From the NCBI GenBank assembly GCA_022827095.1, contig JAJDTP010000005.1, forward strand, positions 186,001 to 250,000: 64,000 nucleotides of DNA, written 5' to 3'. Each line of letters begins with the position of its first letter. Positions within the stretch are counted from its first letter, which is position 1. The notes beneath the pieces were generated by a model. It was not told the DNA's origin. It was given only the letters and a program-made list of their open reading frames with translations, and made no database searches. The stretch comes from Dehalococcoidia bacterium (GTDB lineage: Bacteria > Chloroflexota > Dehalococcoidia > Lucifugimonadales > UBA3495). Shown here piece by piece: positions 21,118-24,579 of this stretch. The translations under genes and the position numbers were made by a program.

Positions 21118-21149
21118 GGGGCCAACGAACGCGGTTGTTCGCTGGCCCC
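21118..21149 (-). terminator. Large hairpin ending PHO-box module 1
   Basis: GGGGCCAACGAAC (21118-21130) pairs with GTTCGCTGGCCCC (21137-21149), twelve pairs with one mismatch around a six-base loop. It resembles the hairpin at 22563. Both share AACCGGGGCCAGC on the minus strand and lie at the far end of leftward PHO-box modules. There is no T-run, so the terminator role is inferred. The 299 bases between it and 21449 hold nothing else recognised. Confidence 0.45.
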
Positions 21150-21448
21150 GGTTTCGGCTTATGCGCCGATCGTTGTGGTTATTCCTGGTGGCGTCCTGAG
21201 ACGCCACGGACCTCAGGCGAGGTTCGGAGTTATTGCCTCCGTCGATATGGCCGCGCCGTCGGTCCGCTCGTACCCTCGCCGCCAATCCGGCTGCGGTAGC
21301 CTGCCCCGATCTGGCATCGGCCCTATCGGGCCACGGCCAAACGCAGGTATGGGAATGGTGGCGTGGGTTGCTGTGAGTGGCGAGGGATGAATTCCACGGG
21401 CTGATTTCACAAGTCTGTCGGTTGGCAGTATGCCCCGATTGAGAATCT

Positions 21449-21745
21449 TCACCGCGCTCCCACCTGGATGAGCGTGGCCGCCGGCAGGCTCCCCGTGTCC
21501 TGGCCATAAACGTTCCCGCCGATGACGCGGCTCCCGATCACGGAGGCGGATGTCGTGTATGAGCCGCCCTCGGTTTCCGCCGACCAGACCTGCGTCGCGC
21601 CGTAAGGCGTCTGGTCCGCTGAGGCCATCATCAGGGCCATTACGACAGCCAGCGTAACGCCGATCAACGCCAATGCCCACAAATCCTTCCGTCCTCTGCT
21701 CCCGTGTGTCCTCGGTCTGCTTTTGTACATGTTCGCCGCAATCAT
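21449..21745 (-). CDS. Small single-pass membrane protein of PHO-box module 1
   Basis: A 98-residue protein. The N-terminus is basic (MYKSRPRTHGSRGRKD), followed by a hydrophobic segment around residues 22-42 (WALALIGVTLAVVMALMMA) and a Ser/Thr/Gly-rich outer part. ATG 21745 has GAGG eight bases upstream; the GTG one codon earlier is spaced too closely. It lies about 320 bases downstream of the leftward PHO-box-like promoter at 22073-22137, and that leader shows no other supported gene. Family unknown; it could be a pilin-like or small stress membrane protein. Confidence 0.55.
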   Translation of the reverse strand: MIAANMYKSRPRTHGSRGRKDLWALALIGVTLAVVMALMMASADQTPYGATQVWSAETEGGSYTTSASVIGSRVIGGNVYGQDTGSLPAATLIQVGAR

Positions 21746-22072
21746 CACTACTTCCTCGCTCAGTTATGTCGCCAGTTCGGTTTGCTTCTCCAAATATTGA
21801 AACGATGAGTATGTTTCCGCCGTGGCGATAATGCCGATGGGTTCCGCAGTAGTTACCCGTCGAGACTACGGGACAATAAGCACCGATGTCCAACGGTGTC
21901 ATGTCTTCGGTAGTCGATATACGATTTGAACTATGATTTGGTTCCTGATGGGATCGGCCGACGCAATCTTTTGTGGTCTCTGATCTCATGGGTTCGAAAA
22001 AGTGGACGGGGCCAGGCGATACCGCACTCCCCCGCTTGATTAGACCCCAGCCCTATCCCCGTCCATGCATGC

Positions 22073-22137
22073 ATACTACCGGCCAATTGTGAAAACTAAG
22101 TGAAAATCAAGCACAAATATATGAACATAACGTGAAT
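22073..22137 (-). promoter_or_regulatory. PHO-box-like promoter 1 (four half-sites plus -10)
   Basis: Read on the minus strand, TTTTCAC half-sites occur twice at an 11-base period (complement GTGAAAA at 22089 and 22100). A second pair of TTCA half-sites (complement TGAA at 22122 and 22133) also has an 11-base period. Ten bases downstream of the first pair is TAGTAT (22078-22073), the expected -10. Direct repeats of 11 bases replacing the -35 are the layout of PhoB/PhoP operators. The same geometry recurs at 23065. Confidence 0.6.
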
Positions 22138-22338
22138 GTTTGCCGCGGAGGCGGTCACATGTGCCCTCGACGGGCTATTTCCATGCACAACTCTCTCGAT
22201 GAATGTGGAGATGTCAGCTGTGTCGGGCGTGTTGTAGACATTCCTCCGACGGAGTCTGTTTCCAAAAACCCGTATTGGTCGGCGACCGTCTTGCCCGTCT
22301 GCCGTGCGGTTGTGAACAGGTTTGGTTTGGCCGCCACC

Positions 22339-22505
22339 CTCACGCCTACCCAGTTTGTGAAGAGGAAACGTGAGGATCAGGATTTTCAAAATTCAGGGAT
22401 CAGCGGGATTGGAATCGTTCCGCGATGGAGACTTTGCAATCCTGCTAAATCATAAACTCCCGTGAATCCTGATACTGACAATTCACGCCAGTGAGTACGT
22501 ATGAG
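22339..22505. repeat. Dispersed palindromic intergenic element, copy D (inverted)
   Basis: Inverted relative to copies A-C and E: GTGAGGATCAGGATTTTCAA at the left and GAATCCTGATACTGAC at the right, with GGAATCGTTCC in the middle. The outer ends are CTCACGCCTACCCAG and GTGAGTACGTATGAG. It lies upstream of module 1's promoter within the gene-poor region. Confidence 0.7.
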
Positions 22506-22562
22506 GGCCAACACCCGATTCGCCCGCCACGGCGCAGCCAATGGCCCCGCTGAACATAAGAC

Positions 22563-22592
22563 GGGCCAGCGGGTGTTATCACCTGCTGGCCC
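22563..22592 (-). terminator. Large hairpin ending PHO-box module 2
   Basis: GGGCCAGCGGGTG (22563-22575) pairs with CACCTGCTGGCCC (22580-22592) through thirteen pairs including one G-U, closing on TTAT. It is the counterpart of the hairpin at 21118. The following minus-strand bases are GTCTTATGTT, weakly T-rich. The 247 bases between it and the 40-residue gene contain no supported gene. Confidence 0.5.
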
Positions 22593-22839
22593 CGGTTGCG
22601 GCGCGCCTATGCGTTTGTTTGGTTATACCGGCCCCTTAGTTATGTGCTTCGGAGCCCTGGGGTAGTTTTGAGGCTATGGCGCTTATTCACGCCCTTCGCT
22701 GCTGGTTCGGCAGGCCCTGGTTCCGGCATATTATGTAGCCGCCAGAACCGCCGGTTGGATTTGATGGTTTGGCCCTATTCGGACCATGGTCACCGCCATG
22801 GTGCGGTGTTCCCCTCCTGAGTGGCGCGCCGCCGTACTG

Positions 22840-22962
22840 TTATCCCTGTGGGATGATCGACAGCGCCGACCCCGGGATGGTCACCGACAGCGCGCCCACC
22901 ACCGAGACCGGCGCGAGTTTCCTCCAGGCGATGCTGCCGTTTCCGTTCTTTGTAGCGATCAT
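22840..22962 (-). CDS. 40-residue hydrophobic peptide of PHO-box module 2
   Basis: A very short frame encoding a basic/polar start (MIATKNGNGSIAWRK) followed by a hydrophobic stretch (LAPVSVVGALSVTI and ALSII), like a single membrane helix. The start has GGGGAG ten bases upstream and lies about 95 bases after the predicted transcription start of PHO-box promoter 2. It is the only frame I found in the unit with this arrangement. No family is recognised. Coding status depends on promoter position and the ribosome binding site. Confidence 0.4.
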   Translation of the reverse strand: MIATKNGNGSIAWRKLAPVSVVGALSVTIPGSALSIIPQG

Positions 22963-23064
22963 TTTCGGTCTTCTCCCCTTTGCTGGTTTGTCTGCGGACG
23001 ATCGGGGAGCGATTACCTTTCGCCGTCGCTAACCCCGTGTGGCCTCGTTCGCATCTGTGCATCC

Positions 23065-23128
23065 AGAATAGCAACCGAGTGTGAAAACCAAGTGAAAAGC
23101 GCCCCCGTAATCGTGAGCGAATTGTGAG
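23065..23128 (-). promoter_or_regulatory. PHO-box-like promoter 2 (four half-sites plus -10)
   Basis: On the minus strand, TTTTCAC half-sites (complement GTGAAAA at 23081 and GTGAAAA at 23092) have an 11-base period, and TCTCAC/GCTCAC half-sites (complement 23113 and 23124) also have an 11-base period. A -10 TATTCT (23070-23065) lies ten bases downstream of the first pair. Distances between half-sites (11, 21, 11) equal those of promoter 1. It faces the 40-residue gene. Confidence 0.6.
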
Positions 23129-23281
23129 AATGTTTCAAATTTGTTACACACACGAATGGCGCTTGCCCTACCTCCGACCCAATCGGGCGACCTCCCTTGC
23201 GCCCCGCGATTCCCACGACATAGCGCGCTGTCACGCAGCCCCGGACGGCCCCTGCTGCCACGCCGTTGGAGACTGGTTCCC

Positions 23282-23364: not shown

Positions 23365-24579
23365 ATGCCGGAAGCTAAAGGCCCCCTGGACGGAATACGC
23401 GTCATCGACCTCGGTCGGCACCAGGCCGGCCCCCGCTGCGCCCAAGTGTTGGCCCGTTTGGGCGCCGAAGTCATCAAGGTGGAACGTCTGGGAGGCGAAG
23501 AGACCCGCTACCACGCCCCGTGGGTTCGCAAGCAATCCGCCTACTGGGTGCAGTACAACAGCGGCAAGAAGAGCCTCAGCATCGACCTCCGCAAGGAGGA
23601 GGGCAAGGAGGTCCTTCGCAAGCTGGTCAAGGTTTCCGATGTCCTCCTGCAGAACTTCCGCCCCGGCACCATCGACGTGATGGGCTTCGGCTACGACGTG
23701 CTCTATGAGCTGAACCCGCGCATCATCATGGTCAACGTCTCGGCATACGGCCAGTTCGGACCCTACCGCGAGCAGATTGGCTACGACCCCATCGGCCAGA
23801 CCATGTCCGGCATCGCCATGGTCACCGGCGAAGAGGGCATGCCTCCCATCCGCGCCGGCGTGCCCATCATCGACCGCACCACCGCGCTCCATGCCGCCAT
23901 CGGCACCCTTGCCGCCCTGCACGAGCGCGAGTCTTCCGGCGTTGGACAGACCATCGACGCCTGCCTCGCCGACACCGGCTACAGCTACACTGAAATCCCC
24001 ATCACGGCCTACCACGGCGCCGGCATCGAGCCCCGCCGCGGCGAATCCGCGGCCCCGCCGTCCGGCACCTACCCCTGCGCGGACGGTTGGGTGCTGATCT
24101 CCGCCGGCGACCAGCACCACTGGCACCGCGTCTGTAACGCCCTCGGCAAGCCCGAGTGGCTGGAGGACCCCCGGTTCACCACCCGCCATGAGCGCGGCCG
24201 GAACGGCGAGTTGGTCAACCAGGCCATGCGCGACCTGATGGCCAACATGACCATGCAGGAAGCCATTGCCCACTTCACCCACCACGACGTGGTTGCGGCT
24301 CCCGTCAACACCATCGCCCAGGCCGCCGCCGACCCCCATCCTTGGGAGCGCCGCGCCATGGTCGAGGTCGACGACTTCCTCGCCGGTACCATCGCCGTGT
24401 CCGGCGACTTTTGGCACTTCAGCCGCACCCCCGCCGTGGTCGGCACCACTCCCCAGGTGGGCGAGCACAACGAGGACGTCCTCACCGGCATCCTCGACTA
24501 CACCGAGGATCAGGTTCAGGCCATGTACGAGGCCAACGTCATCGGCACCTTCCACCACTACGACGAAGTCCCCGGGTAA
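23365..24579 (+). CDS. CaiB/BaiF family CoA-transferase
   Basis: A 404-residue class III CoA-transferase: N-terminal GIRVIDLGRHQAGPRCAQVLARLGAEVIKVE, then KKSLSIDLRKEEGKE, LLQNFRPG and SAYGQFGPYREQIGYDPIGQ. These enzymes move CoA between organic acids through an aspartyl-CoA intermediate. The acceptor aspartate expected in the middle region is plausible but not proven by eye. It has its own promoter at 23282 and a perfect palindromic terminator at 24604, so it is a single-gene unit. Chloroflexota of the SAR202 type often carry many such genes. Confidence 0.9.
   Translation: MPEAKGPLDGIRVIDLGRHQAGPRCAQVLARLGAEVIKVERLGGEETRYHAPWVRKQSAYWVQYNSGKKSLSIDLRKEEGKEVLRKLVKVSDVLLQNFRPGTIDVMGFGYDVLYELNPRIIMVNVSAYGQFGPYREQIGYDPIGQTMSGIAMVTGEEGMPPIRAGVPIIDRTTALHAAIGTLAALHERESSGVGQTIDACLADTGYSYTEIPITAYHGAGIEPRRGESAAPPSGTYPCADGWVLISAGDQHHWHRVCNALGKPEWLEDPRFTTRHERGRNGELVNQAMRDLMANMTMQEAIAHFTHHDVVAAPVNTIAQAAADPHPWERRAMVEVDDFLAGTIAVSGDFWHFSRTPAVVGTTPQVGEHNEDVLTGILDYTEDQVQAMYEANVIGTFHHYDEVPG

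Follow-up and report, generated by a model that had tools for sequence, protein, structure and literature searches.

Twin two-pair operators of the OmpR/PhoB type and a candidate degenerate fused regulator in SAR202-related Dehalococcoidia

Two minus-strand sites, at 22073-22138 and 23065-23130 of the window (the whole stretch of 64,000 nucleotides of a Dehalococcoidia genome that was analyzed), have a geometry that firmly marks them as members of a real promoter class, one whose operators are predicted to accommodate two tandem dimers of an OmpR/PhoB-type winged-helix protein. Our most far-reaching interpretation, which we offer tentatively and hold at somewhat less than an even chance, is that a fused sensor/winged-helix protein with a dead kinase and a degenerate receiver serves as a one-component activator that possibly senses gas or redox state; that through strictly spaced double-dimer operators it would run a regulon of surface and small membrane proteins in sponge-symbiont-related SAR202; and that the resulting transcripts may share an RNA-level control based on AUAAC loops. 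SAR202 Chloroflexota are abundant; to our knowledge, they remain essentially uncultured and their gene regulation is poorly known.

Each site carries two TTTTCAC repeats together with two further half-sites, at offsets of 11, 21 and 11 bases, just as the preliminary description had recorded. Fourteen bases separate the outer pair from TTTTCAC-N4-TTTTCAC, and ten more bases lead from the last half-site to a TA...T hexamer at the -10 position. At site 1, the distal pair is CATTCAC-GTTA-TGTTCAT (CATTCAC at 22132-22138, TGTTCAT at 22121-22127), the promoter-proximal pair is TTTTCAC-TTAG-TTTTCAC (22089-22095 and 22100-22106), and the hexamer is TAGTAT (22073-22078). At site 2, the corresponding elements are TTCTCAC-AATT-CGCTCAC (TTCTCAC at 23124-23130, CGCTCAC at 23113-23119), TTTTCAC-TTGG-TTTTCAC (23081-23087 and 23092-23098) and TATTCT (23065-23070). 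In both, the outer half-sites are looser than the inner pair, retaining the core TTCAC. The exact inner pair, TTTTCAC-N4-TTTTCAC, has only two matches in the 3.79-Mb genome, namely the twin sites themselves, when about 0.008 would be expected from dinucleotide frequencies; its reversed control has no match in the whole genome, and matches with up to two mismatches occur at control level in the same genome.

The same twin sites occur at the same locus, 995-1107 bp apart, in three genomes of the same genus (G001, G011 and G013), of which G001 is bin87 of the sponge Aplysina aerophoba (PMC5649159). When these are aligned with the window's genome (G000), the half-sites, their spacing and the -10 element are retained and the flanks have diverged, which bears out the earlier suggestion that the spacing is the conserved feature: the TTTTCAC units of both inner pairs are invariant in all four genomes, as is TTCACGTTATGTTCATA in the distal pair of site 1; the distal pair of site 2 reads TYTCACAATTTGTTCAC in the three relatives; the TA...T of promoter 1 is conserved in all three; and the hexamer of promoter 2 is likewise conserved in the alignment. 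The two sites share 78% of their bases over 41 nt, as might be expected of a chance resemblance or of a decayed, functionless tandem duplication, but conservation amid diverged flanks excludes chance, and matches across the genus, many of them at unrelated loci, leave such an explanation with a negligible probability.

Those matches come from scans of 14 genomes of the genus. The four-half-site plan, searched without a -10 element, gave 27 matches against none for the control, all in seven genomes; the inner pair followed by N10 and TANNNT gave 20 against none, in the same seven genomes, and all 20 coincide with four-half-site matches. TANNNT lies exactly 10 nt on in every one of the 20, such that the operator sits at the -35 position at a fixed distance from the -10. 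The consensus of 23 sites is TTCAC-n6-TTCAC-n16-TTCAC-n6-TTCAC-A-n9-TAnnnT, with TA.ccT as the -10 consensus of the class. In the order as a whole, matches occur in 27 of 250 genomes, and control matches are confined to a single genome, G057, where the reversed control pattern matches about 20 times, suggesting an unrelated repeat family. Exact matches among named records fall mainly in Dehalococcoidia/SAR202; the two others are from Actinomyces, where the match may be an actinobacterial PHO-like site, and from Armatimonadetes. On the Armatimonadetes contig (L234), the full pattern matches exactly at two places separated by 476 bp, and the gene downstream looks by its sequence like an amino-acid permease.

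In the window's genome, the known sites consist of the twin sites and one at the candidate regulator's own gene, amounting to a very small regulon. Elsewhere in the genus, the downstream genes include those for an exported protein of 440 residues and a membrane protein of 140 residues, along with others of unknown family; a search of the window's genome found no copy of the 440-residue protein. In the wider order, the genes that follow some of the sites encode universal stress proteins, a cation-efflux-like protein or large secreted repeat proteins (all named by sequence inspection). Divergent, back-to-back sites stand beside a universal-stress-protein-like gene in G069 and G070 (L240, L241 and L270), where four sites are found on one 13.6-kb contig, and in SAR202 bin22 (G212, L281/L231) about 7 kb contain three sites, each of which precedes a gene for a large secreted repeat protein by 60-66 nt.

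The preliminary description had seen in the twin sites the operator plan of PhoB/PhoP, and this holds in so far as the plan is that of the OmpR/PhoB family: direct repeats of about 7-nt half-sites recur every 10-11 nt (every 11 nt at the twin sites) and end 10 nt before the -10. That geometry is common to the whole family (PMC4415409, PMC3264566, PMC4832192). Because published PHO boxes are built of 11-nt direct-repeat units and the Streptomyces coelicolor core, GTTCACC, contains TTCAC (PMC4415409), the resemblance to a PHO box is fair; however, the TTTATA-N5-TTTACA bound by KdpE also repeats every 11 bp (PMC3264566), and geometry by itself is therefore unable to single out PhoB. If the twin promoters belonged to the PHO regulon and PhoB/PhoP bound them when phosphate is limiting, similar sites would have been anticipated near phosphate genes. 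The genome does have phoU, beside a pstC-like gene, but no site lies near pst or phoU, and the 19 kb around them hold 9 TTCAC pairs where shuffled sequences lead one to expect 8.5. Neither the scan of this region nor those of the whole genome found a PHO-regulon site or any other strong site, and phoA was not located. In addition, the targets known from relatives encode exported or small membrane proteins, with no phosphate genes among them; the receiver-winged-helix part of the candidate regulator scores 123.6 bits on the PhoB model, below the cut-off of 296; and the distribution of the motif tracks that of a KdpE-like fused regulator, whereas stand-alone response regulators are found equally in motif-negative genomes. 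The PHO assignment was thus rejected after the scan of the phoU/pst region, and we consider it very improbable despite the shared repeat unit and -10 distance.

To find a regulator whose distribution matches that of the motif, all OmpR-type DNA-binding domains in the 14 genomes of the genus were collected and clustered. Four clusters of stand-alone OmpR-type response regulators are present in all or in 13 of the 14 genomes, and being nearly universal they cannot explain the split into motif-positive and motif-negative genomes; as lineage-specific binders they were rejected, since motif-negative genomes have them too. In a tree of 57 large fused proteins (a quick tree, with some inner forks open), a clade of ten rows plus a fragment from G013 is represented in seven of seven motif-positive and in none of seven motif-negative genomes. 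Such a distribution would arise by chance once in 3432 for one clade, a figure to be read with the fact that this clade was chosen after seeing the data and that the metagenome-assembled genomes are 85-100% complete. At eight of nine clade loci, that of the window's genome included, an operator pair lies near the regulator's own gene, 245-550 bp upstream of it (for the G013 fragment, the distance is about 1.6 kb); the chance of this proximity is about 0.0013 per gene, and the roughly 47 other fused regulators are essentially without nearby operator pairs. The regulator-linked site of the window's genome (C15, L147) has one more base between its pairs, for which reason the rigid four-half-site pattern missed it and the pair search found it; its -10, TAAGTG, is poor, and it is oriented away from the regulator gene. 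Of about 36 sites outside the genus, five are situated 27-279 bp from where a similar winged-helix gene ends. These comparisons make a strong case, and we think it probable, that the activator is the fused protein encoded at about 221296-223569 of contig C15.

An alternative is that the promoter class is as described and that something else binds it, either a sister clade of fused proteins (the G000:C15:163493 group) or a stand-alone response regulator. The DNA-binding domains of the sister clade are nearly identical to those of the candidate and occur in most motif-positive genomes, so that with almost the same distribution (plus G006) its members may be what actually binds the sites, or may bind them alongside the candidate; moreover, the G009_C16 member has an operator-like pair upstream, and the winged-helix proteins adjoining sites outside the genus have an intact kinase. 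But that member is the only one of the sister clade with an upstream operator, the clade was not seen in G005 and does occur in motif-negative G006, and the stand-alone regulators do not co-occur with the motif. On balance, we regard a different binder as unlikely.

The favored regulators, those of the ten-row clade, are proteins of about 750 residues with the order GAF-PAS-HisKA-HATPase_c-REC-Trans_reg_C (the winged helix) in one chain; in the window's genome, the histidine kinase, ATPase, receiver and DNA-binding domains lie in a single open reading frame (L147:2897-5170), with the PAS domain recognized by alignment only. Among solved structures, the receiver-winged-helix part is closest to KdpE, and on the NCBIfam equivalog model for KdpE it scores 135.1 bits, below the cut-off of 325. 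Alignment reveals that the phospho-accepting histidine has been lost in ten of ten clade proteins (VSHELRTP having become VSEELRTP, VSAELRTP or close variants), that the D-x-G-x-G box of the ATPase is absent from them, and that the acidic pocket of the receiver is altered, its aspartate being retained; in the protein of the window's genome, the receiver lysine is lost as well. Given these losses, phosphorelay by the clade proteins is unlikely, and the signal would probably be a ligand or redox change sensed through GAF/PAS. The GAF part resembles the heme GAF of DevS, whose heme-ligand histidine (H149, which we take to be the proximal ligand) aligns with His 65 of the candidate, and a histidine occupies this place or the one next to it in five to six of the seven clade members shown.

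Under the mechanism that we propose, the twin sites would function as parallel, activator-dependent promoters directed along the minus strand. Two OmpR/PhoB-family winged-helix dimers, most likely of the C15 protein, would bind head to tail on the four half-sites with TTCAC cores, with a step of 32 bp, or about three helical turns, between the two pairs. With the inner dimer in the place of a -35 element, RNA polymerase would probably be brought to the weak -10, as in PhoB-type activation.

Promoter 1, with a predicted start near 22066, would yield a hairpin leader, a gene for a small membrane protein and a 3' hairpin. The leader hairpin (22003-22065, minus strand), identified in a repeat search, consists of GGACGGGG...CCCCGTCC followed by a T run, resembles a terminator, and is conserved in the four genomes; it folds to -28.7 to -30.6 kcal/mol in G000 and G001, with z-scores against shuffles of only -0.8 and -2.0, and may be a leader attenuator or a short RNA. 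Downstream, a gene of 98 codons (21449-21745, minus strand; MIAANMYKSRPRTHG...) encodes a protein with one predicted membrane stretch, which has no match in Pfam or NCBIfam and is confined to G000, G001, G011 and G013, apart from a weak match containing a stop in G005. Its dN/dS is 0.17-0.41, silent exceeding replacement changes in all six pairwise comparisons of the four genomes, as under purifying selection. Because the gene begins about 320 nt beyond the predicted start, behind the terminator-like hairpin, it may be read only conditionally. The transcript would end at a hairpin conserved in the four genomes, GGGGCCAGCG...CGTTGGCCCC (21118-21149, minus strand), likely a terminator or a 3' processing hairpin, and a related GGGGCCAGCG hairpin ends transcript 2 also.

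Promoter 2, with a start expected near 23058, would produce a transcript of about 500 nt. Its gene is a small membrane-protein ORF of 40 codons (22840-22962, minus strand; MIATKNGNGSIAWRKLAPVSVVGALSVTIPGSALSIIPQG), which in the four genomes starts at the same place and stops at nearly the same one, and which has a dN/dS of 0.18-0.48 among the relatives vs. 0.42-0.96 against G000, implying weaker constraint on the window's own copy. The conserved 3' part (22545-22839, minus strand) contains several hairpins with AUAA/AUAG loops and ends in the hairpin at 22563-22593; six of its 65 predicted pairs show changes on both sides, a covariation signal that is weak with four sequences. Between the twin sites, about 170 nt (22336-22509) belong to a family of dispersed repeats, of which genomes of the genus contain many copies. 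The divergent CoA-transferase gene (23365-24579, plus strand) may conceivably be a target, but the -10 and the conserved downstream genes point to the minus strand; in G009 (L054/L291), a single such site likewise stands divergent to the CoA-transferase.

The main products of the twin promoters could also be regulatory RNAs: site 1 would give a hairpin RNA of 70 nt and site 2 a sponge-like RNA whose loops carry AUAAC, an arrangement compatible with either regulator. The terminator-like hairpin directly after the predicted start of transcript 1 and the structured 3' part of transcript 2 would both fit, as would the sequence word ATAACT: in an unbiased count of words over 12 regulon leaders and transcripts it ranks first, with 14 occurrences where 0.4 are expected (about 160 times the background rate), frequently placed in the loop of a hairpin or just ahead of the Shine-Dalgarno sequence. 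In the DNA examined, about half of the clusters of at least three ATAAC follow operators. At the twin locus, ATAAC words lie at minus-strand positions 21178, 21229, 21763, 22575, 22622, 22639 and 22839, several of them in hairpin loops. Against this stand the two ORFs, which keep their frames under an excess of silent change, the weak structural z-scores and thin covariation, the lack of any family in an Rfam search, and the occurrence of ATAACT before a doxX-like gene without an operator. A tRNA search of the sequence also found none. We therefore view RNAs as the main products as doubtful, if conceivable. In the conserved leader of that doxX-like membrane-protein gene (L311, G000:C26:52513; orthologs L307, L310 and L313), AAUAACU closely precedes the Shine-Dalgarno sequence. 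As a genus-wide element, AUAAC clusters were rejected: triple ATAAC has 27 matches, fewer than the control, and hence no general enrichment.

What emerges is a precise, testable operator code with a named candidate regulator for a lineage that includes sponge symbionts, as well as a natural system for testing how signals pass from dead kinases and pseudo-receivers to DNA-binding domains, a question that a recent review calls unresolved (PMC12632262).

Among known systems, the PHO box of PhoB/PhoP in E. coli and S. coelicolor is similar in its 11-nt direct-repeat units, the last of which lies about ten bases before the -10 and replaces the -35, and in the likeness of GTTCACC to TTTTCAC; the twin sites differ in their strict two-pair layout with a 32-bp step, in targets that include no phosphate genes, and in a candidate regulator that is not PhoB. 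The KdpE site of kdpFABC has the same period (PMC3264566), and KdpE is the nearest solved relative of the candidate's receiver-winged-helix half, but in the candidate this half is fused behind a GAF-PAS-kinase part, and its operators have two pairs of sites and other half-site letters. Like the hybrid two-component systems of Bacteroides, the candidate is a single chain that includes a kinase, a receiver and a DNA-binding domain (PMC11253607); unlike them, it has a winged helix of OmpR/KdpE type in place of an AraC-type domain, GAF/PAS sensors, and kinase and receiver residues that have been lost. It also resembles the atypical OmpR/PhoB regulators such as ChxR and the pseudo-receivers, winged-helix regulators that work without receiver phosphorylation (PMC3960148, PMC12632262), from which it differs in that its fused kinase is degenerate as well.
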